Below, one piece after another: positions 1,982-31,685 of a stretch of DNA of 35,196 nucleotides. The stretch comes from Nitrospirota bacterium. Lineage in GTDB: Bacteria > Nitrospirota > Thermodesulfovibrionia > Thermodesulfovibrionales > SM23-35. A program made the position numbers and the translations under genes. The notes below the pieces were generated by a model. That model was not told where the DNA came from and made no database searches. It saw only the letters and a program-made list of their open reading frames with translations. Position 1 is the stretch's first letter, and each line of letters starts with the position of its first letter. Location of the stretch: NCBI GenBank assembly GCA_040754395.1, contig JBFMCL010000006.1, positions 1 to 35,196 of the forward strand, read 5' to 3'.

Positions 1982-2948
1982 AATTATTTCGACCGGTTCC
2001 TATCTTCCGGAGAGGGTTCTTTCAAATTCCGAACTTGAGAAAACAGTCGATACGTCCGACGAATGGATTACCGAGAGAACGGGAATAAGGGAAAGAAGGA
2101 TTGCCGATGAAGGGCAGGCGGCGTCAGACCTCGCCTTCGGCGCTTCAAAGGTGGCCATCGAAAGGGCAGGGCTTACGCCCGATGACATTGATCTCATTGT
2201 TGTTGCAACCATTTCGGGCGACATGGCATTCCCCTCTACCGCCTGCTTTCTCCAGCATAAGCTCTCTGCAGCAAGAGCTGCGGGGTTTGATGTCAATGCA
2301 GCCTGTTCAGGGTTCGTGTATGCCCTTCACATTGCCGACAGTTTCATAAGGACCGGTGTGCACAACTACATCCTTGTTGTCGGGACCGAGGTGCTCTCGA
2401 AGATAACGGACTGGGAAGACAGGGCCACATGTGTGCTTTTCGGAGACGGTGCCGGCGCTGCAGTGCTCGGGCCGACCGATGAGGACAGGGGGGTGCTCTC
2501 AACGCACATTAATTCCGACGGCAGTATGTGGGAGCTGATTCACGTTCCGGGCGGTGGATCAAGGCAGCCTGCGTCTGAAGCGTCCGTAAGGAACAAGCAG
2601 CATTATATCAAAATGAAGGGAAACGAGACGTTCAAGGTTGCGGTGAGAACCCTTGAAGAACTTGTGATAAAGACCCTTGAAGAGAACGGGCTTGAACCGT
2701 CGCAGCTTTCCCTGCTTATCCCGCACCAGGCGAACCTGAGGATAATACAGGCAACTGCGGAAAGGCTTGGGATGCCGATGGAAAAGGTTGTCATGAATCT
2801 CGAAAGATACGGCAATACATCAGCGGCTTCCATTCCCATCGCTCTCGATGAGGCTGTTGCATCGGGCAGGGTGAAAGAAGGAGATTACATTCTCCTTGAG
2901 GCGTTCGGCGGAGGGCTCACCTGGGCTTCTGCATTAATAAAGTGGTAA
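1968..2948 (+). CDS. fabH: Beta-ketoacyl-ACP synthase III (KASIII)
   Basis: FabH condenses acetyl-CoA with malonyl-ACP to start type II fatty acid synthesis. The 326 residues include the catalytic triad Cys113 (NAACSGF), His253 (IPHQAN) and Asn283 (YGNTSAAS). The TTG start at 1968 lies inside plsX (14-base overlap); it gives the family N-terminus (RIISTGSYLPERVLSN) at the right distance. The 3' end overlaps the converging histidine kinase gene by 15 bases (2934-2948), with no terminator hairpin between them. It is the housekeeping initiator and distinct from the two FabF-like ketosynthases at 6834-9720. Confidence 0.96.
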   Translation: MRRSRIISTGSYLPERVLSNSELEKTVDTSDEWITERTGIRERRIADEGQAASDLAFGASKVAIERAGLTPDDIDLIVVATISGDMAFPSTACFLQHKLSAARAAGFDVNAACSGFVYALHIADSFIRTGVHNYILVVGTEVLSKITDWEDRATCVLFGDGAGAAVLGPTDEDRGVLSTHINSDGSMWELIHVPGGGSRQPASEASVRNKQHYIKMKGNETFKVAVRTLEELVIKTLEENGLEPSQLSLLIPHQANLRIIQATAERLGMPMEKVVMNLERYGNTSAASIPIALDEAVASGRVKEGDYILLEAFGGGLTWASALIKW

Positions 2949-5090
2949 GTCCCTGATTCTTGCATCAAGAAGCCGTCTTACTGTTGAAAGCAGTTCAATC
3001 CCCTCAAACGGTTTTTTTATGAAAGCGTTCACTGACTCATCCCTGGTTATGGCGTCGGTGCCGTAGCCGGACACAACGATGATCTTGACTCCGGGCCTGA
3101 TTTTCCTGAGATTCATGACCAGTTCCGGCCCTTCCATGAGCGGCATCATGACGTCGGTGATTATCAGCGGGACTTTGTCTGAAACACTCCTGAACGTGTC
3201 GATCGCCGTAAGGGGATTGTGTTCAGGCATGACCGTATAACCGTGTGTTTCGAGGATATCCCTGATATAATTCAGCACATCCCTGTCATCATCGATCACA
3301 AGGATATTCTCATTGCCTTCCACTGAGACAGGAAGCGGCTTAAGCACCTTCGGAGCAGTCTTTTCGGAAACAGGGAAAAAGATGTCAAACGTGGTGCCTT
3401 TGCCCACTTCGCTCTGAACAGAGACATATCCCCTGTGGTCTTTGACTATCCCGTAAACCGTTGCGAGGCCAAGGCCTGTTCCCTTTCCTTTTTCCTTGGT
3501 CGTGAAAAACGGGTCAAATATCTTTCCGATAAGTTCCTGGGGAATGCCGAATCCCGTATCGGAGGCGGTCAGAACGATATATCTGCCCGGAATGATGTAT
3601 GCGGGCATGTCCCTGGAGCTGCTGCCGACGTCGATCATGTCAGTTTTTATGGTGATGAGGCCCCCGTCCGGCATCGCGTCGCGCGCATTGACCATGAGGT
3701 TCATGATCACCTGTTCGATCTGGTTTGGGTCGCCCTCAATCAGGGGGATATTGTTCTGCAGATTTATCTTCAGGCCAATTCTCTTATCCAGTACCCCTTC
3801 GAACAACTTCGCAGAGTCGTTGACAATGTCGTTCAGGCTCAGCGGCAGCACCTCGTGCGCTTCTCTGCGTGCAAAGCTGAGGAGTTTTGATACCATTACC
3901 CCGGCCTTGCGCGCCGAACTTTCGATATTTCTCACCCTCTGTCTCGAAGTGTCATCAAGATTGCTGAACTCCAGCAGCAGCTCGGCATATCCGAGTATCG
4001 CGGTCAGGATATTGTTGAAATTGTGGGCGATCCCCCCGGCGAGCGCCCCGACGGACTCCATCTTCTGGGAATGCATGAGCTGTTCCTGTATTTTCTTCTT
4101 TTCAGTGATATCCCTGTAGAATGACTGGATATAGAGTTCATCGCCAATGGTAATGGCTTTTGAACTGACTTCAAGGAGAACCCTGCTTCCGTCTTTCTTG
4201 TAATGCTCTGTTTCGAAGATGAGGGATTCGCCCTGAAGGATCCTCGAAAACCGGTCAGCATGCTTTTCCCGCTCCCCGCTTGTCTTAAGGAGCTCAACGT
4301 TAATCCCGACTAACGCTGCACGGTCAAACCCATGTATCTCGCAGGCTTTCTGGTTCACATTGACGATGATCCCGTTCTTGTCGAGTACTATAACGCCGTC
4401 AGTCGCATTGTCAAAGATCGACCTGTGCCATTTTTCCGAGATGGCAAGCTCTTTTGTCCGTTCCTGGACCAATTCTTCGAGTTGGGCTGAATAGATTTTG
4501 AGCTGATTTTTTTGTTGATCTAAGTCATACTGAAGACTAAGTTCACTTAAAAGTCTCTTGTGACTCAAAAATCTCCAGATAAAAGCAACCGAAAAAATGG
4601 AAATCATAAAAGCGTTGTTACTCAAAAAAATTGATCGATTGGTTACTTGGTCAAATATCAATATGGGAAATAGATAGATCGAATATATGGAAAATCCGAC
4701 AAAAAACGATAGTGGTAAGTTGAGGGGTAATATTCCTAGAACACAAATGATAAGGAGCGTCATTCCGGCATAGTAAGGTGATTGATGACCGCCGAAAGAA
4801 AGAATCATAAGTTCAATTGCTATTGCTGATGCAATAGCTCCAACTATGAGAAGCGAATATTGATAATATAGACTTTTCTTGAGTCTGTTGAGAAAATATA
4901 GGGAGATTAGAATGGATGAAACTACTAAACGATAGACTATGAACTTATGAAAATTGTCTGGTGTGACGAAATAATCTAATATTCCAATTAACAAAAATAA
5001 AATTGCTCCGAATAAAGCACTCAGACCTGTCCATAAGTGCGTAAGCGTTTCAATGTAGTTTTTTAAATATTGTTCTTTTTCCGATTCCAT
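2934..5090 (-). CDS. Membrane-bound hybrid sensor histidine kinase (TM sensor, PAS, HisKA, HATPase, REC)
   Basis: A 718-residue hybrid kinase. Residues 1-180 are hydrophobic with about six membrane segments and no recognised ligand domain. A short coiled coil (185-220) leads to a PAS domain (about 221-330). The phospho-acceptor is His356 in GGIAHNFNN, an NtrB-like HisKA with Asn in place of the usual Asp. The ATPase has an N box ([11 protein letters not shown]), DTGFGIP (511-517) and GTGLGL (537-542). The C-terminal receiver has Asp646 (ITDVMMP) and KKP near 693. No DNA-binding output is encoded nearby. It is the last gene on the minus strand after the acyl carrier/ketosynthase operon, 49 bases behind the desaturase. 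Base composition changes sharply near codon 200: 4561-4620 is 19/60 GC while 3661-3720 is 37/60, suggesting a chimera of a conserved kinase core with a foreign sensor. Confidence 0.93.
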
Positions 5091-5122: not shown

Positions 5123-5141
5123 GACTGTCGAGCGACAAGTC
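5123..5141. repeat. Imperfect inverted repeat between desaturase and kinase genes
   Basis: GACTGTCG and CGACAAGTC flank a central AG. The inner five pairs are perfect and the outer three pair with one bulge. It abuts the desaturase stop and lies 32 bases before the kinase start. No T-tract follows on the minus strand, so an operator or weak attenuator is as likely as a terminator. A poor promoter-like pair (TTGACT, 17 bases, GATGAT on the minus strand) overlaps it. Confidence 0.3.
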
Positions 5142-6561
5142 AAGAACCCGATTTTTTTACTTTTTTTAGAATTAACCTAGCGGTGTCCATTCCCAAATAT
5201 GCCGCGCCCGGTATCCCTTGTGTTTGTGTCGTCCAGTGTCCGCATAAATAGAGCCTTTTAATTGAGGTAGACTGTCTCAATTCAGGAGTAAATAATTGTG
5301 AAGGTAAACTGGCCCAACCGTAGGCTGCTCCCTTGTAATTGAGAGTATATCTATAAAGGGTATAAGGCGTCGCGGCGTCTTTATAGATGATATGTGAAGA
5401 TAAATGAGGAATTATGTGTTTTTCTATTCGCTCTATGAAGGATTCTAATGATTTAGATTTATTATTTTTCCAGTACGCTCTGTTTTTAAAAGGGGCATTT
5501 ACAAATGCTAAAATAGTCTTATTGTCAGGTGATAAACGTACCATATATCCACCGACAGCTTCCAGGTCTCCCTTTTTTGCATACATATATATTTTGTCTA
5601 AATCATAATAAGGCAAATACCATACGTTGGTGCCTGGGTTTGGCAACGAATCAAAGACTTTATCAATACCCAGGTATAAAATAAAGGTCGACAACGAAGG
5701 AATCATACCATCAATTATTTGTAATACATCTTTGTTTACAGTTTTTTTGCCTAAAAGCTTGAAAAAAGTCTGCATTGCATCGCATGCAGAAATGACATAA
5801 TCAGAAGCGACAAAACCGTAGTTTTCCAGCATTACGCCGGTAACGCGATTATCTTTTGCTCTGATTTTCTTCACCAGGCTTGATAATAATAGCTCCCCAC
5901 CAAATGATTTAAACTTCTCCGCCAGGGTATCTGACAGCACCTGCATTCCTCCCTCGGGATAATACCCACCGTCAAGAATAAATTCAGTAAAAATCTTGGT
6001 ACCTGTGAAGGCAGAGATCATCGAAGGTGGTAATGCCCCATTACCGAAAGAGGGTAACGCGATCATGGCTTTTAAGTGTTCATCCTGAAAATATTGGTCA
6101 AGGAGTTCCTTAAATGTTTGTTTCCTAAATGCTGCAAAATTTATAGGATTAAAGGAGGTAAGGTGCTGGATGAATTTGCGAATATTGGCAGCTTCGTGAG
6201 GGAAAGTGTATTGAATTTGATCAATAGTCTTGTCTAAATCAGGCCAAAAGGTAATTTTGTGGTCAGGGGTAATGATAATATCGGAAGGAACATATCGTTT
6301 TATCTGTAGAGTATTTTCTAACCCGAGTCCTTCAATGATTAGCCTCATGTTTCCACCATGTCTGTAACTACCAAAAGAATGTGCAGCAGCGTCAAAGGTA
6401 TATCTTCCTCTTTTGAAGGAAGTACAATAGCCGCCTGGTTTGTGATGCTGCTCTGCGATAAGTACCTTCATCCCGGCTTTTGCAAGATAGCAGCCGCAGA
6501 CAAGGCCACCGAGTCCTGCCCCTATAATAATAGCGTCATATGAATCGATTTTATCAGGCAT
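5140..6561 (-). CDS. CrtI/phytoene-desaturase-like FAD-dependent oxidoreductase
   Basis: A 473-residue flavoprotein of the phytoene desaturase/retinol saturase superfamily. The N-terminal Rossmann FAD motif is IIIGAGLGGL (about residues 11-20), followed by EQHHKPGGYC. The C-terminal FAD signature is near residues 430-460 (LYLCGHW, then IPGAAYLGMDTA). Such enzymes introduce, move or reduce double bonds in polyenes; the substrate cannot be read from sequence. It starts two bases after the ACP stop, with GGAAG as a plausible ribosome binding site. No phytoene synthase or other carotenoid gene is in the window, so an ACP-bound or released polyene from the adjacent ketosynthases is the more likely substrate (inference). 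CrtI-like enzymes beside FabF, FabZ and ACP also occur in gene sets proposed for ladderane lipid synthesis in anammox bacteria. The gene is very AT-rich (18/60 GC at 5461-5520). Confidence 0.85.
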   Translation of the reverse strand: MPDKIDSYDAIIIGAGLGGLVCGCYLAKAGMKVLIAEQHHKPGGYCTSFKRGRYTFDAAAHSFGSYRHGGNMRLIIEGLGLENTLQIKRYVPSDIIITPDHKITFWPDLDKTIDQIQYTFPHEAANIRKFIQHLTSFNPINFAAFRKQTFKELLDQYFQDEHLKAMIALPSFGNGALPPSMISAFTGTKIFTEFILDGGYYPEGGMQVLSDTLAEKFKSFGGELLLSSLVKKIRAKDNRVTGVMLENYGFVASDYVISACDAMQTFFKLLGKKTVNKDVLQIIDGMIPSLSTFILYLGIDKVFDSLPNPGTNVWYLPYYDLDKIYMYAKKGDLEAVGGYMVRLSPDNKTILAFVNAPFKNRAYWKNNKSKSLESFIERIEKHIIPHLSSHIIYKDAATPYTLYRYTLNYKGAAYGWASLPSQLFTPELRQSTSIKRLYLCGHWTTQTQGIPGAAYLGMDTARLILKKVKKSGS

Positions 6562-6563
6562 TT

Positions 6564-6821
6564 CTAACTTCCATCTGTTTTTTGTTTAAGCAACATTATG
6601 GTCAAATCTATTACCTGTCTAGGAGTGGTAATGCTAGGGATGTCTTCATCTCGCACAGAAATCTTATATTTTTTTTCGATAGCAACAACAATCTCAATTG
6701 CCTTGATTGAATCGATCTCCAAATCATTTGCCAAATTCATATCTGCGGTAATGTCTTCCGTATCCGTTCCTGAAACATCAGAGATAATAGATATGATTTC
6801 TTGCTCTACATTTTCTACCAT
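6564..6821 (-). CDS. Acyl carrier protein of the accessory operon
   Basis: An 85-residue acyl carrier protein. Ser38 in LEIDSIKAIE is the phosphopantetheine attachment site. The DSIK form, rather than DSLD of housekeeping AcpP, resembles carrier domains of secondary lipid and polyketide systems. It is set up by AAGGAG upstream, 12 bases after the ketosynthase stop, and is followed after two bases by the desaturase gene. It presumably carries the chain handled by the two ketosynthases and the dehydratase next to it. No dedicated phosphopantetheinyl transferase is visible, so a cellular one would be needed. Confidence 0.93.
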   Translation of the reverse strand: MVENVEQEIISIISDVSGTDTEDITADMNLANDLEIDSIKAIEIVVAIEKKYKISVRDEDIPSITTPRQVIDLTIMLLKQKTDGS

Positions 6822-6833
6822 TATAGCTCCTTA

Positions 6834-8039
6834 TTAGATGAATTTTTTCAAAACCAGGCAGGCATTATTGCCACCGAAGGCATAAGAATTATTGAGTGCA
6901 AAATTGACTTCACACTCTCTAGAGTCATTTGGAACGCAATCAATATCACATTCAGGATCAGCAGTCTCAAAATTAATTGTCGGTGGTATGATATTATTCT
7001 TCACAGCGAGAGCACAGGCAATTGCCTCAAGTGATGAGGCAGCACCCATTGTGTGTCCGAGCATAGACTTGATTGAACTCACAGGAATGTGCAGATACCT
7101 GTCACCAAACACTTCTTTGATGGCAGCGCATTCGGTTTTGTCATTTGCTGGAGTTCCCGTGCCATGTGCACTGATGTAGTCTACATCCTCTTTTTGAATT
7201 CCTGCATTCTGTAAGGCTTTTGTCATGCACATAGCGACTCCTTCAACCGATGGTTGAGTCATATGACTGGCATCACAGCTAAGCCCATAACCCAATATCT
7301 CCGCATAAATTGTTGCATTCCTTTCCAAAGCGTGTTCTAACGCTTCCAATACGAGTATTCCTGCGCCTTCTGCAACCATCATGCCTTTGCGGTTTTTGTC
7401 AAAAGGCTGACATTTTTCTGGTGCGACAGCCGAAAATTGATTAAAACCGGTGAAAGATATTCTTGAAAATGGGTCTGAGGCACCTGCGAGGACCATATCC
7501 AACCTATTTAAAGATATTAAGTCGAAACCGTAACCTATTGCATAATTACCAGCTGCACAAGCAGTCGAAAATATGTAATTTCCACTGCCAAGATGCAAAT
7601 GCTTTGCTATTGCTGCCGGCGTAGAATGCACTGGAAGCTGACAAATCAGGTTCTGTTCTATATCTTCATTTCTGATTACCTTGTCATTAATATGCTCAAT
7701 GACCTGTATAGATCCTGAAGTTATGCCAATGCAAGTTCCAAATCTTGCAAGAGGTATTTCATGCTGGGGCAAGCGGGAATCCTGTATGGCAAGCAATGAT
7801 GCTGCAATTGCCAGCTGAGACGCGCGACTATGAAAAATCAGGTCTTCGACAGGTAAAAAATTTAAGGGGTCAAACAACTTTACTTCTCCACCATTGTGAG
7901 TAAAATGATTCGATGTATCAAAAGATGACACGGGACTGATCCCGGATTTTCCGTTCAGAAGGCTCTCCCAGAAGTCTTCCCAACCGATGCCGATGGAGGA
8001 AATAACTCCTAATCCAGTTATGACTACTCTCTTATTCAT
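6834..8039 (-). CDS. Beta-ketoacyl-ACP synthase, FabF-like, catalytically intact
   Basis: A 401-residue condensing enzyme with the full KAS I/II triad: Cys161 (STACAAGN), His292 (AHGTGTPAND) and His329 (MLGHTMGAA), plus the conserved Lys324. It would elongate an ACP-bound chain with malonyl units. It overlaps the dehydratase gene upstream by eight bases and is followed by the ACP gene. Its partner is probably the degenerate ketosynthase at 8485-9720, giving a KSalpha/KSbeta (chain-length-factor) pair as in type II polyketide and aryl polyene systems. The two proteins share fold landmarks throughout. The gene is AT-rich compared with the housekeeping fab genes at the window start. Confidence 0.93.
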   Translation of the reverse strand: MNKRVVITGLGVISSIGIGWEDFWESLLNGKSGISPVSSFDTSNHFTHNGGEVKLFDPLNFLPVEDLIFHSRASQLAIAASLLAIQDSRLPQHEIPLARFGTCIGITSGSIQVIEHINDKVIRNEDIEQNLICQLPVHSTPAAIAKHLHLGSGNYIFSTACAAGNYAIGYGFDLISLNRLDMVLAGASDPFSRISFTGFNQFSAVAPEKCQPFDKNRKGMMVAEGAGILVLEALEHALERNATIYAEILGYGLSCDASHMTQPSVEGVAMCMTKALQNAGIQKEDVDYISAHGTGTPANDKTECAAIKEVFGDRYLHIPVSSIKSMLGHTMGAASSLEAIACALAVKNNIIPPTINFETADPECDIDCVPNDSRECEVNFALNNSYAFGGNNACLVLKKFI

Positions 8040-8466
8040 TTTTTACACTAAACACAAGCTCAGCCTCTGAGACTTTGCTTTCATGAACAAATGCTGTTGC
8101 TGACACGTATGCACCATTTGGCAGGGATTTAGTATTAACTGCTTTAATTATTAGCTGATCACCGGGAAAAACGGGATGCAAAAAACGAGCTTTCACCGAA
8201 CCTAAAAAATAAAGTGCCTTCTTCATTCCGTTATTTTGATCGGCAGAAAAAAGCACTATTGCAGCCTGAGCCATAGCTTCTATTATTGCGACTCCAGGCA
8301 TGATTGCCTTTTCAGGAAAATGTCCCAGGAAAAAGATGTCGTTACCCGAAATATTCTTTACCGCAGTGACTTCTTTCCCCGGTGTAAATTCGATGACCTT
8401 ATCGATCATGATGAAAGGAAAACGTTGTGGTATAAATTTCTTTATTTCCTCAAAATCAAGAGTCAT
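8032..8466 (-). CDS. FabZ-like beta-hydroxyacyl-ACP dehydratase (hot-dog fold)
   Basis: A 144-residue protein with the FabZ active site: His49 in FLGHFPEKAIMPGV and Glu63 in IIEAMAQ. The N-terminal QRFPFIMIDKV segment is also typical of FabZ. It would remove water from 3-hydroxyacyl-ACP to give a trans-2-enoyl chain. With no ketoreductase or enoyl reductase in the operon, either primary-metabolism FabG supplies the 3-hydroxy substrate or the chain stays unsaturated (inference). It starts 18 bases after the chain-length-factor stop, with GGAG eight bases before the ATG, and overlaps the intact ketosynthase gene by eight bases. Confidence 0.92.
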   Translation of the reverse strand: MTLDFEEIKKFIPQRFPFIMIDKVIEFTPGKEVTAVKNISGNDIFFLGHFPEKAIMPGVAIIEAMAQAAIVLFSADQNNGMKKALYFLGSVKARFLHPVFPGDQLIIKAVNTKSLPNGAYVSATAFVHESKVSEAELVFSVKNE

Positions 8467-8484: not shown

Positions 8485-9720
8485 TTAGTGTTTTCCAATA
8501 ATGATTGCTGAATTATGTCCGTAAGGATCGGAAGAGATAATCAGGGCTGCATTAACAGGTTGTTTCCTCGCACCATTTAGGACATAATCGAGATTGCATT
8601 CTTGGTCATTTTCTTTATGATTTACTGTAGGCGGGATAATCCCCTTTATGACAGTACCAACAGCGGCTGAAATAGACAGGGTGCCAGAGGCGGAAAATGT
8701 TTCTCCGACCATTGATTTCACCGCACTGACCGGAATGGTATAGGCATCTTTTCCAAAGACAGCCTTAATAACCTCGGTTTCCATCCTGTCAAGTCCTCTG
8801 GTCGAGTTGGCACCTGAAAATATGCAGTCTACTGCCTCAGGTGCCATTGATGCATCTTTCAGGGCAAGGACAATAGCATTTGTGAGACCTGTTCCGGAGC
8901 TATTGAATTTTTTGTCTGCATCGGGATCAAAGGCATTCCCATATCCGAGCACCTTTGCCACGATAGCCGCGCCTCTGCGTAATGCATGATGCTCATCTTC
9001 AAGGACAAGGACTGCTGCCCCCTCCGAGAGGATGATGCCGTTTCTCCGTGCATCAAAGGGGCAGCATATGGGCTCAGAACCATCCATGCCAGACAAATAC
9101 CCGAGTTTATGGAAGCCAAAAAAGGTCTCTTCACACAGTTCTTCGACTGCACCTGCAAGAACAACATCTGCCCTGTTTAAACGGATGAAGTCGGAAGCAT
9201 ATGTCACAGCATCGATTCCTGCGCAAAAACCTGTTGATATGGTGGTGTTGAACCCCTTAATTTGAAACCGGATAGAGACCTGACTTGCGGGAGAATTGAT
9301 TACGGTATTAGGGAAATGTGATGGATTGACATATTTTGGACCTTCTATCAGGCTGTCACGATCGAATTGTGAAATGCTATGGAGACTTCCGAATGTAGTT
9401 CCAATAGAAACACCTGTGATATAGGTGTTTTGCTCAGTAATCTGAAGTTTTGCATCATCAATAGCCAGTTGCGCAGCAGACATTAATAGCTTTGTGCTTC
9501 TGTCGAGCGTGCGGAGCCCCTTTTTCCCTAACAGCGATTCAGGATCGAAATCGCTGATTTCACCGGCGGTGTGAACACTAAATGAGGAAGTGTCAAAAAG
9601 GCCGATCTTTCTAAATCCTGTTCGGCCCTCAAACAGTCCTTCCCAGTAGCGATCTTTGCCTGTGCCGATAGGAGATATAACCCCGATCCCGGTTATGACA
9701 ATATTTCTCCTGGGAATCAT
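8485..9720 (-). CDS. Degenerate ketosynthase, chain-length-factor-like
   Basis: A 411-residue FabF-fold protein that aligns without gaps to its neighbour around the active sites but has lost the catalytic residues. The nucleophile position is Phe165 (ISTGFCAGID; a cysteine sits one residue later). The first His is replaced by Gly303 (FSGANSTRG in place of SAHGTGTPA), and the second by Glu340 (MVGETFSAS). Lys335 is retained. Non-catalytic KS homologues that pair with an active KS are known as chain length factors (KSbeta), in which Cys is often Gln; ketosynthase-like decarboxylases are the alternative. The ATG overlaps the methyltransferase stop by four bases. GC content is intermediate and rises towards the 5' end (35/60 at 9001-9060). 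Confidence 0.88.
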   Translation of the reverse strand: MIPRRNIVITGIGVISPIGTGKDRYWEGLFEGRTGFRKIGLFDTSSFSVHTAGEISDFDPESLLGKKGLRTLDRSTKLLMSAAQLAIDDAKLQITEQNTYITGVSIGTTFGSLHSISQFDRDSLIEGPKYVNPSHFPNTVINSPASQVSIRFQIKGFNTTISTGFCAGIDAVTYASDFIRLNRADVVLAGAVEELCEETFFGFHKLGYLSGMDGSEPICCPFDARRNGIILSEGAAVLVLEDEHHALRRGAAIVAKVLGYGNAFDPDADKKFNSSGTGLTNAIVLALKDASMAPEAVDCIFSGANSTRGLDRMETEVIKAVFGKDAYTIPVSAVKSMVGETFSASGTLSISAAVGTVIKGIIPPTVNHKENDQECNLDYVLNGARKQPVNAALIISSDPYGHNSAIIIGKH

Positions 9721-10997
9721 TTGCGAATAAGATAAAACACTATTATATCGGAATCTTCACGTATCTCGGAGATTGACGCATCGGGTATTCGCGCATGTCT
9801 CAGGATCGTTCTGAAATCTTCTTCATCCCGCTGCAGGAAGCCATCCCAGTCAACAATCCAGTGGTATTCCTGATGACGATATTTGGCAGCATCTTTGAAT
9901 GAAGTAATCAATAACCCACCGGGATTTAGGAGATTGTAAAGAGCATGAATCAGTTTTGTGAGGAAATCAGAATCCAGATAATCGAAGAACCCGACGCTGT
10001 AAATGATGTCTTGTCCTCCAAATTCATTCATATTCAATTCGTGATCAAACATTCTGATTGCGTTGTATTTCCGGAGGATAACCTGATTGGAAGTTGAAGG
10101 TGAAATGTTTGTAAACGAAAGGCGATTTGCGGCAAAAGAAAGCGCATCATTATCAAGGTCAATGCAGGTGAATTTAGCTGCAGATTCCGCTATAGTGGAA
10201 GATATTTCTACAACTTCACGGCAGGAACCACATGCGATATTCAAAACAGAGGAGCCATGTTTTTTCTGCAGTTCATTTTTCAGTATGTCTTCAAGGTTTT
10301 TTAGACGGTTTCTTACAGCTACTGCAAGAGAACTCTCGATCAAGATCGTATCAAGGTAGTGCCCGATTCCTTCAGAAAGCGGAGTTTTTCTATAGATGGT
10401 TTCCAGCATTCTATAATCTCCCTGATATCCCAATGGCCATGTCCTTGCACGGTTAATGGCATAGCTTTTCGACAGTATGGGATTGGTTTTCTGATGGAAA
10501 CGTCTCCGGGCGTCGCGGATAATGGTAATGTCCCGTGTTTCCTGTTCAAAACGCTGGCAGGCGGACAGCACATCATCGAAGGCAGAAGAGATGTCTTTCA
10601 GAATAGTATCCGGATTTGCGTCTTGATCATTGCATCTCTTCTCGATTTCTTCAAGACGCGCATTGAAGATATCCGTTGATTCATCAAGTTCCTTAATGCG
10701 TTTGCCGTCCAGTTCAACCCCGGCTCGGTAGGTGTTATCGAGTTTTTCGCACCATCTGACGAACCCCGCTTTTTCCTGAATCCCGCCGTTGAACCAGAGC
10801 ATATGACCGGGTGAAAGCGGGTAATCAGTCTGTATCCCTATCCCTGCTTCGCTGATGTCGACAGCCTTTCCTTTAAGGTTGAGCCATTTCCGTTCCCTGG
10901 CTTCTGACACGCTCACTGAATAATCGATGGTCTGCGTGAACGGCTTTCTTTCGTACCGTCTTACCTTCTCAAACTGGTGGGTTATCGCATTTTGCAT
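9717..10997 (-). CDS. PilZ domain fused to a SAM-dependent methyltransferase (PhcB/EF-biosynthesis-like)
   Basis: A 426-residue, two-part protein. Residues about 10-100 are a PilZ domain: RRYER (13-17) and DISEAG (47-52) match the c-di-GMP-binding RxxxR and DxSxxG motifs. Residues about 180-426 are a class I methyltransferase with SAM motif I VLNIACGSC (251-259) and an acidic CIDLD (278-282). The segment before it (RTWPLGYQGDY) recalls proteins annotated as extracellular-factor, 3-hydroxypalmitate methyl ester synthesis enzymes (PhcB-like), a resemblance recalled from memory. I moved the start from an ATG at 11033 to the ATG at 10997 because GGGGGAGG lies just before the latter. As first gene of the operon it could methylate the ACP-derived product, with c-di-GMP as switch (inference). 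Confidence 0.82.
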   Translation of the reverse strand: MQNAITHQFEKVRRYERKPFTQTIDYSVSVSEARERKWLNLKGKAVDISEAGIGIQTDYPLSPGHMLWFNGGIQEKAGFVRWCEKLDNTYRAGVELDGKRIKELDESTDIFNARLEEIEKRCNDQDANPDTILKDISSAFDDVLSACQRFEQETRDITIIRDARRRFHQKTNPILSKSYAINRARTWPLGYQGDYRMLETIYRKTPLSEGIGHYLDTILIESSLAVAVRNRLKNLEDILKNELQKKHGSSVLNIACGSCREVVEISSTIAESAAKFTCIDLDNDALSFAANRLSFTNISPSTSNQVILRKYNAIRMFDHELNMNEFGGQDIIYSVGFFDYLDSDFLTKLIHALYNLLNPGGLLITSFKDAAKYRHQEYHWIVDWDGFLQRDEEDFRTILRHARIPDASISEIREDSDIIVFYLIRK

Positions 10998-11000
10998 AAG

Positions 11001-11010
11001 ATCCTCCCCC
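11001..11010 (-). promoter_or_regulatory. Ribosome binding site deciding the start of the PilZ-methyltransferase gene
   Basis: On the minus strand GGGGGAGGAT precedes the ATG at 10997 at normal spacing. The alternative ATG at 11033, 12 codons upstream, has no such sequence. Confidence 0.7.
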
Positions 11011-11230
11011 GTTATTACGGTTCTTTCTTTCATACTCAGTTTTTACTGAACTGTTCCTGCATCTTCAAAACATAACGCTCTACATTTCTGCTGTCCTCCT
11101 TTTTGCAAAAACGTATATTATGATCGGTCTTTGTTTTTTATGGGTTTTTTCTGACCTCGATTGAGACGCAATCCTTTGAATATTCTTTCGGACTTATCCT
11201 TAGGTATTTACTTGATCTGATCGCAGTCCT

Positions 11231-12001
11231 TTATTTCTGTGTCATCTTGTCATAAAACGGCTTGAGCAGGTCTACGGGAACCGGGAATATTATTGTTGAA
11301 TTTTTTTCTGTAGCGATTTCCGTGAGAGTCTGAAGGAACCTGAGCTGCAATGCTCCGCTTTCTGTCGATATAATCTTTGCCGCATCTGCAAGCTTCTGGG
11401 ATGCCTGATACTCTCCCTCTGCATGGATGACTTTCGCCCTTCTTTCACGTTCAGCTTCTGCCTGCTTTGCGATAGCCCGCTGCATCTCTTCAGGCAGATC
11501 GACATTCTTGACCTCGACCGCTGTGACCTTAATGCCCCATGGTTCTGTCTGGAAGTCGATAACCTTCTGCAACTCCGTGTTCAGGTCTTCCCTTTTCGTG
11601 AGGAGATCGTCAAGCTGACTCTGCCCAAGGATGCTCCTGAGCGTTGTTTGGGCAATCTGCGAGGTGGCAAAATAAAAATCCTCAACCTCCGTGATCGCCT
11701 TAATCGGGTCCATAACCCTGAAATACACCACTGCGTTTACCTTCACGGTGATATTGTCCTGCGTAATGATGTCCTGTGACGGAACATCCATGGTAACGAT
11801 TCTGAGGCTGACTTTTACCAGCTTGTCAATGATCGGCCAGATGATTACCAGGCCGGGACCTTTCACCGGGATAATCCTTCCAAGCCTGAATACGACACCA
11901 CGCTCATATTCCTTCAGGATTTTTATCGCACTTGAAAGAAAATACAGGACGAAAAATGCTATCAGGAGAAAACTCATGAATGAAGGTGCTAAAGTCGGCA
12001 T
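11231..12001 (-). CDS. Slipin (stomatin-like SPFH/band 7 membrane protein)
   Basis: A 256-residue SPFH protein with one N-terminal membrane helix (about residues 7-25) and the slipin core ([32 protein letters not shown]). An Ala/Glu-rich coiled coil follows ([20 protein letters not shown]). Slipins form ring oligomers and membrane microdomains, and NfeD-type proteases act on them. It has a strong ribosome binding site (AAGGAGG, five bases from the ATG). It lies 99 bases downstream of nfeD on the same strand, the usual nfeD-slipin pairing. Confidence 0.93.
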
Positions 12002-12100
12002 ACATACCTCCTTTTTAACTAAGTTTTGTAGATGGTTTTTCCCAAATGAAAATGAAAATATTCAGCCGGTAAACCGGGCAAACCATATGTCCCCGATTCC

Positions 12101-13423
12101 TCACGGTGATTTTCTTACCTTTACCTTGAGCCCTGATATTGACTCAACCACGACCTTGTCGCCTTTGGCTATGGGTTCATCGGCGCAGGCTGACCATCGT
12201 TCTCCGTGCAGCGAGACCATGCCCGTGTCGCGGGTAATATCTGTATCTGCGATGCCCTGCAATCCGATGAGGCCTTCATATCCGGTAAGCGGTTTTCTCT
12301 TGTATGCCTTAAATGCAAGGCCGAATGTCAGCGTAAAAAACAGGGCGGTTGTCAGCGCGGCAGGGATTATGATGGCGAGCGAAAGCTTCATGAAAGGTGC
12401 GGGGGATTCGAAGAGCATCAGTGAACCTATTACCATAGAGATGATACCGCCGATTGTGAGCACTCCATGAGAAGTGATCTTTATTTCGAGCACGAAGAGA
12501 ATGATCGAGAGAATGATCAGGAGAAGTCCTGCGTAATTCACCGGAAGGGTCTGGAATGCGTAGAATGCAAGAATGACACATATCCCCCCGATGACTCCCG
12601 GGAAAAGGGAGCCCGGGTTTGTAAGTTCGAAGAACAGTCCGTAAAAACCAAGGAGCATAAGAATGTACGCGATATTGGGGTCAGTAATGAGGTTGAGTAT
12701 CCTGTACCTGAGCCCCATTTCTTCTCTGTTGACGACGGTATCCTTCGTGCTGAGGGTTTTTTCTCCTGTTACTGTTTTCACTTTTTTGCCGTCGATATCC
12801 GACAAAAGAGAATTAATATCCTTGGAGACGAGGTCGATAATATTTCCTTGCAGCGCCTCTGTCTCGGTTGCGGAAATGCTCTTTCTGACTGCTTCCTCAG
12901 CCCATTGCGCGTTTCGTCCCCTGCTTTCAGCAAGGGATTTAATGTACGCAGCAGCGTCATTGGTTGCTTTTTCAGACATTGTCTTGTCCATCTTCTCACC
13001 GACACCTACAGGATGCGCTGCACCGATATTCGTTCCCGGTGCCATTGCTGCAACATGTGAAGCAATGGCAATGAACACCCCTGCAGATGCTGCCCTGCTG
13101 CCGCTTGGTGAGACAAAGACCACCACTGGCACATCGCTTCCGATAATATCCTTCACAATGGTTCTCATTGAGGTATCGAGTCCGCCGGGTGTGTCCAGCT
13201 CAATGACAAGCGCTTCAGCTCTTTTTGCATTTGCGCTTTTTATGCTCTTCCCGATAAATTCTGCCGAGACAGGATTAATGACCCCGTTTACGGTGATTAC
13301 CATGACCTCTTTTTTCGTCTCTGATGAAAGGGGAGAAGTGAGGAAAAAAAATGTCAGGACCAAAAGAACAGAGGTGCTCATAAATATAAACATATTCTTT
13401 AAGATTATCTGCTTACTTTTCAT
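12101..13423 (-). CDS. nfeD: NfeD membrane-bound serine protease (ClpP class, long form)
   Basis: A long-form NfeD (about 440 residues from the ATG at 13423). An N-terminal signal/anchor is followed by a ClpP-like periplasmic protease with LDTPGGLDTS (77-86), catalytic Ser113 in RAASAGVF and a probable catalytic Lys152 (SEKATND). Four to five membrane helices and a C-terminal OB-fold (about 370-440) follow. Homologues cleave the C-terminus of their slipin partner, encoded next. A longer reading from 13465 is unlikely because the promoter at 13434-13462 would lie inside it. The ATG at 13423 has no ribosome binding site and begins about 10 bases after the -10 box; ATGs at 13393 or 13381 are alternatives. 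Confidence 0.9.
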   Translation of the reverse strand: MKSKQIILKNMFIFMSTSVLLVLTFFFLTSPLSSETKKEVMVITVNGVINPVSAEFIGKSIKSANAKRAEALVIELDTPGGLDTSMRTIVKDIIGSDVPVVVFVSPSGSRAASAGVFIAIASHVAAMAPGTNIGAAHPVGVGEKMDKTMSEKATNDAAAYIKSLAESRGRNAQWAEEAVRKSISATETEALQGNIIDLVSKDINSLLSDIDGKKVKTVTGEKTLSTKDTVVNREEMGLRYRILNLITDPNIAYILMLLGFYGLFFELTNPGSLFPGVIGGICVILAFYAFQTLPVNYAGLLLIILSIILFVLEIKITSHGVLTIGGIISMVIGSLMLFESPAPFMKLSLAIIIPAALTTALFFTLTFGLAFKAYKRKPLTGYEGLIGLQGIADTDITRDTGMVSLHGERWSACADEPIAKGDKVVVESISGLKVKVRKSP

Positions 13424-13433
13424 AATATAATGA

Positions 13434-13462
13434 ATTATAGACATTTGAAAAATAAAATGCAA
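13434..13462 (-). promoter_or_regulatory. Promoter of nfeD-slipin
   Basis: On the minus strand TTGCAT (13462-13457), 17 bases, then TATAAT (13439-13434). The -10 box ends ten bases before the ATG at 13423, so the mRNA would have a leader of only a few bases. Confidence 0.6.
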
Positions 13463-13497
13463 CAAAGGAGGAAAAGGAGGGAAAAGAAAATATTCTG

Positions 13498-30980: not shown

Positions 30981-31685
30981 ATGGTTGAGAGAAGACGGAA
31001 TCTGAGGGTTGCGGTAACTGTGATGAACATGAAAGGAAGAACGGTTTTTACCAGCAGGGTGCAGATACTGAACCTGAGCGTCGGCGGAATTGCACTGAAG
31101 ATATCGAGGAGGCTTATGAAGGGGAAGCAATATGTGCTCCGGCTTGAAGGCAGGGGAAAGGTCCTGAATCTCACGGGCAGTGTTGAATGGTCTTCTTTCC
31201 ATGAGGAGGGAAAAACCGTCCCTGGAGCATATATGGTCGGGATGAAATTCAATAATGTGAGCAAAGAAAAGATGGCGGAGATACACGGTTTCATCGAAGG
31301 CTTCAGGAAAGAGCAGACGGGAACCCCGGACGTCAGCTACCTGAGCGGCACCAGGGCATATGTGAGATTTCAGATACACTCACCTGACAAAGCAGTGTTG
31401 TATGGTCAGGAGAAGTTCAGGCTGATCAACGTCAGTTTGAGCGGTATGCTTGTGGAGAGTGAAGATTTGCTTCAGACGGGAGAGAAACTGGTGATGGAAA
31501 TCAACCGGTCGAAACAGAAAGTGATCAAGTGCCTCGGAAGGATTGTCACAAGCCAGCCGTTCAGAAGGGATGACAGGGAATACTCTCGCATTGGCGTCGA
31601 ATTTGTTAACATGTCGGAAAAGGACAGGGAAATGCTGAAGGAAATCGTGTGTGTCGCAGAGAATATGGGGCTTGTTGCCCTGTGA
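30981..31685 (+). CDS. Tandem PilZ-domain protein
   Basis: A 234-residue soluble protein with two PilZ-like repeats. The first (about 1-110) has RRRNLR and NLSVGGIAL; the second (about 120-230) has RAYVR and NVSLSGMLVE. Both have RxxxR-type arginines and an N/DxSxxG motif, so each could bind c-di-GMP. No catalytic or transmembrane part is seen. GAGGTG lies just before the ATG. It follows the second DUF299 gene by 43 bases and may belong to that operon. With the PilZ-methyltransferase at 9717-10997 it makes two distinct PilZ proteins in the window; their targets are unknown. Confidence 0.85.
   Translation: MVERRRNLRVAVTVMNMKGRTVFTSRVQILNLSVGGIALKISRRLMKGKQYVLRLEGRGKVLNLTGSVEWSSFHEEGKTVPGAYMVGMKFNNVSKEKMAEIHGFIEGFRKEQTGTPDVSYLSGTRAYVRFQIHSPDKAVLYGQEKFRLINVSLSGMLVESEDLLQTGEKLVMEINRSKQKVIKCLGRIVTSQPFRRDDREYSRIGVEFVNMSEKDREMLKEIVCVAENMGLVAL

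Follow-up and report, generated by a model that had tools for sequence, protein, structure and literature searches.

The window, a 35,196-nucleotide stretch from the genome of an uncultured Nitrospirota bacterium, carries a seven-gene operon that opens with a PilZ domain fused to a methyltransferase (PilZ-MT) and closes with a hybrid histidine kinase bearing a six-helix (6TM) membrane sensor. An acyl-synthesis cassette lies between the two. In related genomes the kinase remains with the methyltransferase (MT) even in neighbourhoods without ketosynthase genes. We propose, with confidence about evenly balanced between yes and no, that the operon is a PhcB/PhcS-like module of signal synthase and receptor. 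The synthase would be gated by c-di-GMP, its acyl substrate would come from the cassette, and the 6TM kinase would be the cognate receptor. If this is true, a single enzyme directly links the private second messenger c-di-GMP to an outgoing chemical signal. The likely receptor would be encoded in the same operon as the synthase, making the link testable with three proteins. The proposal also gives ladderane-type KS/FabZ/ACP/CrtI-like cassettes a candidate role in signalling, not in membrane lipid alone, and gives an orphan class of 6TM sensor domains a candidate source of ligand.

There is a real chance that this is a distinct class of signalling system. A broader version is tentative, and we would sooner bet against it than for it. 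It holds that the class is widespread and new, with an MT autoinducer synthase and its cognate 6TM kinase travelling as a pair across phyla. An exchangeable domain at the N-terminus, either PilZ or cNMP-binding, would place the synthase under the direct control of an intracellular nucleotide messenger, and c-di-GMP state would thereby be broadcast to neighbours. For Thermodesulfovibrionia this version predicts a dedicated signal, a polyunsaturated acyl methyl ester that the cassette would assemble.

A PilZ domain and a methyltransferase in one protein

The longest open reading frame of the PilZ-MT gene spans 9717-11033 on the reverse strand and encodes 438 amino acids, and residue numbers refer to this form. 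M13, at position 10997, is the better start, since a strong Shine-Dalgarno sequence (gggggagg) precedes it and close relatives begin at the same place. The first-pass annotation had chosen this start, correctly on both counts. It had also described a c-di-GMP receptor domain and a methyltransferase in one protein at the head of a biosynthetic operon, and the reading frame, the Pfam matches and the operon layout bear this out. The gene and its parts are as follows.

9717-10997, reverse strand: PilZ-MT fusion gene (open reading frame and translation, Shine-Dalgarno sequence, start shared with relatives)
10707-10964, reverse strand: PilZ domain, residues 24-109 (Pfam PF07238; beta-barrel in the AlphaFold model)
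10947-10961, reverse strand: RxxxR c-di-GMP motif RRYER, R25 to R29 (conserved in the orthologues)
10842-10859, reverse strand: [DN]xSxxG c-di-GMP motif DISEAG, D59 to G64 (conserved in the orthologues)
10473-10706, reverse strand: helical linker from PilZ to methyltransferase (three long helices, residues 110-187, in the AlphaFold model)
9720-10472, reverse strand: class I SAM-dependent methyltransferase domain (Pfam Methyltransf_12/25, family signature, fold matches)

In the AlphaFold model (pLDDT 71), a barrel of six strands (residues 30-108, the PilZ domain) comes first, then three long helices, and last a methyltransferase with a Rossmann fold. The PilZ barrel is absent among the fold matches listed for the whole model, where the MT domain filled the list. 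The linker partly aligns with the Bordetella protein 3ocj, in an alignment that spans model residues 116-438.

The fusion is common to nine Thermodesulfovibrionia genomes, among which are members of f1 (the window's own family) and of two other families in the class, f16 and f18. It is not a chance joining, because all nine orthologous fusions retain both PilZ motifs. Viral contigs searched for homologues of the window protein gave no match. No PilZ-methyltransferase fusion is reported in the open-access literature that we searched, a scope that leaves most subscription papers outside, and only MapZ-CheR1 of Pseudomonas aeruginosa surfaced. There, as proposed here, a PilZ domain controls a methyltransferase with c-di-GMP, but it does so in trans: MapZ and the chemotaxis receptor methyltransferase CheR1 are separate proteins (PMC12564702), whereas PilZ-MT is one polypeptide with an MT of a different family.

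Just upstream of PilZ-MT, at 11231-13465 on the reverse strand, are SPFH (band 7) and NfeD-like genes, a position kept in the window's family. A gene for a small DedA/VTT-like membrane protein precedes the MT in many relatives and is absent from the window.

Conservation of the c-di-GMP motifs

Among the nine fusions, 14 of the 89 PilZ columns are invariant and the remaining 75 vary. All four strictly fixed motif residues fall among the 14, for which random placement has a probability of 4e-4, a rough figure, since the conservation of Arg and Gly also has other causes. This pattern bears on whether the PilZ domain has lost c-di-GMP binding and persists only as a structural or protein-contact domain on a constitutive enzyme. 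Such a loss would fit the low Pfam score (22.6 bits against a cut-off of 22.5; 25.1 bits in the genome search), and PilZ is degenerate in sister lineages and missing in others. Yet the RxxxR and [DN]xSxxG motifs, which the first-pass annotation had called intact in the window as RRYER and DISEAG, are kept in 9/9 fusions despite divergence elsewhere in the domain, and we consider an inert PilZ unlikely. We infer from these residues that the PilZ domain binds c-di-GMP. The messenger should be available in the cell, since searches of the genome yield 24 matches to GGDEF, about 38 to PilZ and 8 to EAL, one of the EAL matches being interrupted by stops. Another protein of the window, at 30981-31685 on the forward strand, has two tandem PilZ domains (46.8 and 39.7 bits).

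The N-terminal domain differs across the MT family. It may be an intact PilZ, a degenerate PilZ with a zinc ribbon, a cNMP-binding domain, or nothing at all, and an intact PilZ of another lineage is also present among the relatives. The intact-PilZ label requires four changes on the MT tree, so N-terminal control domains came and went. Judged by this variation, control through PilZ does not extend to the family as a whole. One member (L072:8377-9843) has a cyclic-nucleotide-binding (cNMP) domain where PilZ would stand. In five others (L042, L052, L055, L062 and L064), an N-terminal PilZ lacking one or both motifs is followed by a CxxC...CxxC zinc-ribbon-like stretch.

The methyltransferase and its candidate substrates

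Pfam Methyltransf_12 matches at residues 264-375, the class I methyltransferase match as a whole covers residues 263-376, and the family shares the signature GYxGDY / CGxxxE / DxIYSxGxFDYL. RTWPLGYQGDY (R197-Y207), which the first-pass annotation had read as a linker motif, is present in the protein but belongs to this MT signature, not to PilZ. A phylum search finds MT relatives in 41 of 246 Nitrospirota genomes.

Among the VIA fold matches to the model, the uncharacterised Bordetella protein 3ocj ranks first (Z 17.1 over 240 residues, model residues 116-438), and it also heads a profile search of the PDB. Structure prediction of the MT region had been put forward earlier as a check on its family. 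It yields mostly small-molecule methyltransferases, but some RNA enzymes are among the matches, and the predicted fold by itself does not settle the substrate. A polyketide synthase of the KS-ACP type, encoded on a conjugative plasmid of Enterobacter ludwigii (L086:3676-6810), ends in a domain of this MT family. Because of this homologue, the sequence evidence favours acyl or polyketide substrates.

The MT could instead modify a protein, such as the partner kinase or another receptor, in the manner of CheR, with PilZ making the modification c-di-GMP dependent. A kinase is indeed adjacent, Pfam gives a weak similarity to CheR, a Deinococcus homologue is annotated CheR, and MapZ-CheR1 is a known PilZ/methyltransferase partnership (PMC12564702). 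The CheR scores, however, are far below the cut-off, the fold matches mainly small-molecule enzymes, and the Enterobacter homologue is a polyketide synthase domain. We regard protein methylation as quite unlikely. For the preferred small-molecule reading, both the substrate and a methyl ester product are presumed from sequence.

A seven-gene operon ending in a six-helix sensor kinase

The operon runs in the order PilZ-MT, KS1, FabZ, KS2, ACP, CrtI-like FAD oxidase and hybrid histidine kinase, with successive intergenic gaps of -4, 18, -8, 12, 2 and 49 bp. The ketosynthases, dehydratase and ACP that the first-pass annotation placed beside PilZ-MT are confirmed by Pfam and NCBIfam matches. It had missed the last gene, the sensor kinase, and the loss of the catalytic histidines from KS1. 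A promoter and terminator scan gave results only slightly above shuffles, and none of the window's operon genes encodes a DNA-binding regulator. Downstream of PilZ-MT, the features are as follows.

8485-9720, reverse strand: KS1, ketosynthase-like without catalytic histidines, chain-length-factor-like (residue losses in 22 homologue rows)
8032-8466, reverse strand: FabZ-type 3-hydroxyacyl-ACP dehydratase (NCBIfam NF000582, 142 bits over cut-off; GHFP and E residues intact)
6834-8039, reverse strand: KS2, FabF-type ketosynthase with Cys-His-His intact (Pfam, NCBIfam, alignment)
6564-6821, reverse strand: acyl carrier protein with the DSI serine present (Pfam PP-binding)
5140-6561, reverse strand: CrtI/phytoene-desaturase-like FAD oxidoreductase (Pfam Amino_oxidase; NCBIfam crtI_fam below cut-off)
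2934-5090, reverse strand: hybrid histidine kinase, 6TM sensor - PAS - HisKA (H356) - HATPase - REC (D646) (Pfam and residues)
4446-5090, reverse strand: six-helix membrane sensor, MASE8-like, with a GGHxSxYYAG motif (six helices in AlphaFold; pairing with the MT)

The two ketosynthases differ in their catalytic residues. KS2 keeps the Cys, both His and the Lys in 15/15 rows. In KS1, His298 is lost, Thr300 is replaced by Asn, Lys328 is kept and His333 is replaced by Glu in 22/22 rows from 19 distinct loci, and the Cys is usually replaced by Phe. With both catalytic histidines gone and the Cys usually Phe, KS1 is expected to play a chain-length-factor-like role, as a partner that does not itself catalyse.

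The sensor makes up the first 215 residues of the kinase (AlphaFold pLDDT 90). Its nearest Pfam family is MASE8, which is detected in 11 of 16 members, the window copy being sub-threshold. The predicted fold is closest to the membrane domains of ImcA, Rv1625c and AC9. Such 6TM domains bind lipophilic ligands in CqsS chimeras and in mammalian cyclases (PMC4821796, PMC11606603). As in CqsS/LqsS and the 6TM adenylate-cyclase anchors, a six-helix domain without large loops stands ahead of the kinase core, with a PAS domain in between in the window copy. Where CqsS/LqsS have CqsA/LqsA as synthase, the putative synthase here is a methyltransferase, and the sensor is nearest to Pfam MASE8.

Pairing of the methyltransferase and the 6TM kinase across genomes

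An MT profile and a 6TM-domain profile were run over the same 246 Nitrospirota genomes. Because MT neighbourhoods supplied the seeds of the 6TM-kinase profile, the pairing counts are biased upward: for 27 of 57 MT matches, a 6TM kinase gene follows in the same orientation no more than 9 kb downstream, and 33 genomes have both genes, against 51 with the MT and 44 with the kinase (hypergeometric 8e-19, uncorrected for phylogeny). In five more operons a contig end intervenes, and the kinase half is found at the edge of another contig. At 14 MT loci the 6TM kinase is the immediate next gene. Elsewhere a cassette of inactive-type KS, FabZ, KS, ACP and CrtI-like oxidase, often with FabG, lies between them. 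Since these 14 loci have the pair without a cassette, the MT-kinase pair is independent of the lipid cassette.

Four cases are free of the seeding bias, two from genomes that were not seeds (G183 and G241) and two from plasmid loci found by the MT alone. G183 has the MT, a 6TM kinase and an OmpR-type regulator. In G241, an MT with two PilZ-like domains is followed by the kinase. The gaps between MT and kinase are 101 and 9 bp, respectively. On a Paraburkholderia graminis plasmid the order is MT, 6TM kinase, RR, RR, and both proteins are homologous to those of the window (hhalign E 3e-14 for the sensor and 5e-15 for the MT). On a Pseudanabaena plasmid the MT adjoins a kinase and an RR, with a weaker sensor match (70% probability).

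The acyl cassette and its product

Cassette-bearing MTs cluster on the tree (84/96; not starred), a pattern that fits a single event in which the cassette came to lie between the MT and kinase genes. KS1 relatives of at least 59% identity (20 genomes) sit in operons with the MT, one of which is interrupted by the end of its contig. FabG is found in many MT-cassette operons and not in the window's.

The nearest known gene sets are anammox kuste3603-3608 and the FASII-like clusters of Desulfotalea psychrophila, which share ACP, FabZ, FabF, a non-canonical FabF without His and a phytoene-desaturase-like oxidase (PMC4790861, PMC2649909). Unlike these clusters, the window operon adds PilZ-MT and the 6TM kinase. 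No radical-SAM enzyme is found among the window operon proteins with Pfam and NCBIfam, and for this reason we do not file the operon as an anammox/Desulfotalea pathway. A plain CrtI identity for the oxidase was also rejected: it scores below the crtI_fam cut-off, and its anammox relatives failed as phytoene desaturases (PMC4790861).

These parallels bear on a reading in which the operon's product is a membrane lipid or pigment with a structural or protective role, such as a polyene or a polyunsaturated hydrocarbon or fatty acid. The MT would tailor this product, its activity tied by c-di-GMP to life on surfaces or in biofilms, and what the 6TM kinase senses would be the state of the membrane, not a secreted signal. 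The window's set of inactive-type KS, FabZ, FabF, ACP and phytoene-desaturase-like oxidase equals kuste3603-3607 minus the radical-SAM enzyme (PMC4790861). The F163/N300/K328/E333 pattern of KS1 closely matches Kuste2805 and partly Kuste3606 (Table 2, PMC2649909). Polyunsaturated hydrocarbons are made by the Desulfotalea counterpart organism (PMC2649909). Related cassettes without an MT also exist, one with a 7TM kinase, so the cassette appears able to work without the MT. Tailoring alone nevertheless leaves unexplained the 14 loci at which MT and kinase pair without any cassette. We hold a purely lipid or pigment function to be rather unlikely, yet the likeliest of the alternatives to signalling.

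Under the signalling reading, the same likeness affects the expected product. An analogue of 3-OH-PAME may not be what is methylated, because the cassette is nearer to the proposed anammox and Desulfotalea polyunsaturated-lipid sets than to a supply of 3-hydroxy fatty acids.

The MT-free cassettes (L090, L091, L092 and L093) have the order FabG-KS1-ACP-(FabZ)-KS2, and their KS1 is 48-50% identical. In L090 the cassette is followed by the kinase with a 7TM sensor, and L091 contains a CrtI-like gene along with a kinase that looks similar.

Comparison with PhcB-PhcS and proposed mechanism

In PhcB-PhcS there is a precedent for pairing a kinase with an autoinducer synthase that is a methyltransferase (PMC10653808). 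As in the PhcB-PhcS-PhcR-PhcQ system of Ralstonia and Cupriavidus, a SAM methyltransferase is encoded with a membrane sensor histidine kinase. Two PhcB features are found for PilZ-MT, namely the class I SAM methyltransferase domain and a gene beside a membrane sensor kinase. The P. graminis locus has the MT-kinase-RR-RR layout, and its phospho-His 233 compares with H230 in PhcS (PMC11960443). The window differs from PhcB-PhcS in that PilZ is fused to the MT, an acyl cassette stands between MT and kinase, the kinase is a hybrid with PAS and REC, and the operon is without PhcR and PhcQ genes. The system therefore resembles PhcB-PhcS in layout, compared by gene arrangement alone, and is not assigned to PhcB. 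The plasmid searches gave no Ralstonia or Cupriavidus match among the organisms named, and the position of PhcQ R154 has no residue-for-residue match in the second P. graminis RR.

In the mechanism that we propose, the synthase of this clade would have gained a c-di-GMP receptor domain, and the acyl cassette would have been placed between the synthase and receptor genes. KS2 with the inactive KS1, FabZ, ACP, FabG (encoded inside or outside the operon) and the CrtI-like oxidase would build a specific acyl chain, probably polyunsaturated. Binding of c-di-GMP to the PilZ barrel would reposition the helical linker and change MT activity. The MT would then methylate the cassette-built chain, with a methyl ester as the simplest product. 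Being lipophilic, the methylated product would partition into membranes. It would be bound by the 6TM domain, in the producing cell or in its neighbours, and would so alter the phosphorelay through HisKA and REC. The direction of gating, the identity of the ligand, its secretion and the receptor function of the kinase all belong to the proposed part of this scheme.

Other neighbourhoods of the family

About half of the family MTs have no 6TM kinase nearby. In L069 and L070, MTs with an intact PilZ are paired with a kinase whose N-terminal membrane part is of a different type (many-helix plus GAF), so the link between MT and kinase may not be confined to kinases with a 6TM sensor.

Two plasmids show a second association of the MT family with c-di-GMP. 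The homologous MT gene is divergent from an annotated EAL gene on a Rhizobium plasmid (L080) and from an annotated GGDEF/phosphodiesterase gene on a Nitratireductor plasmid (L081).
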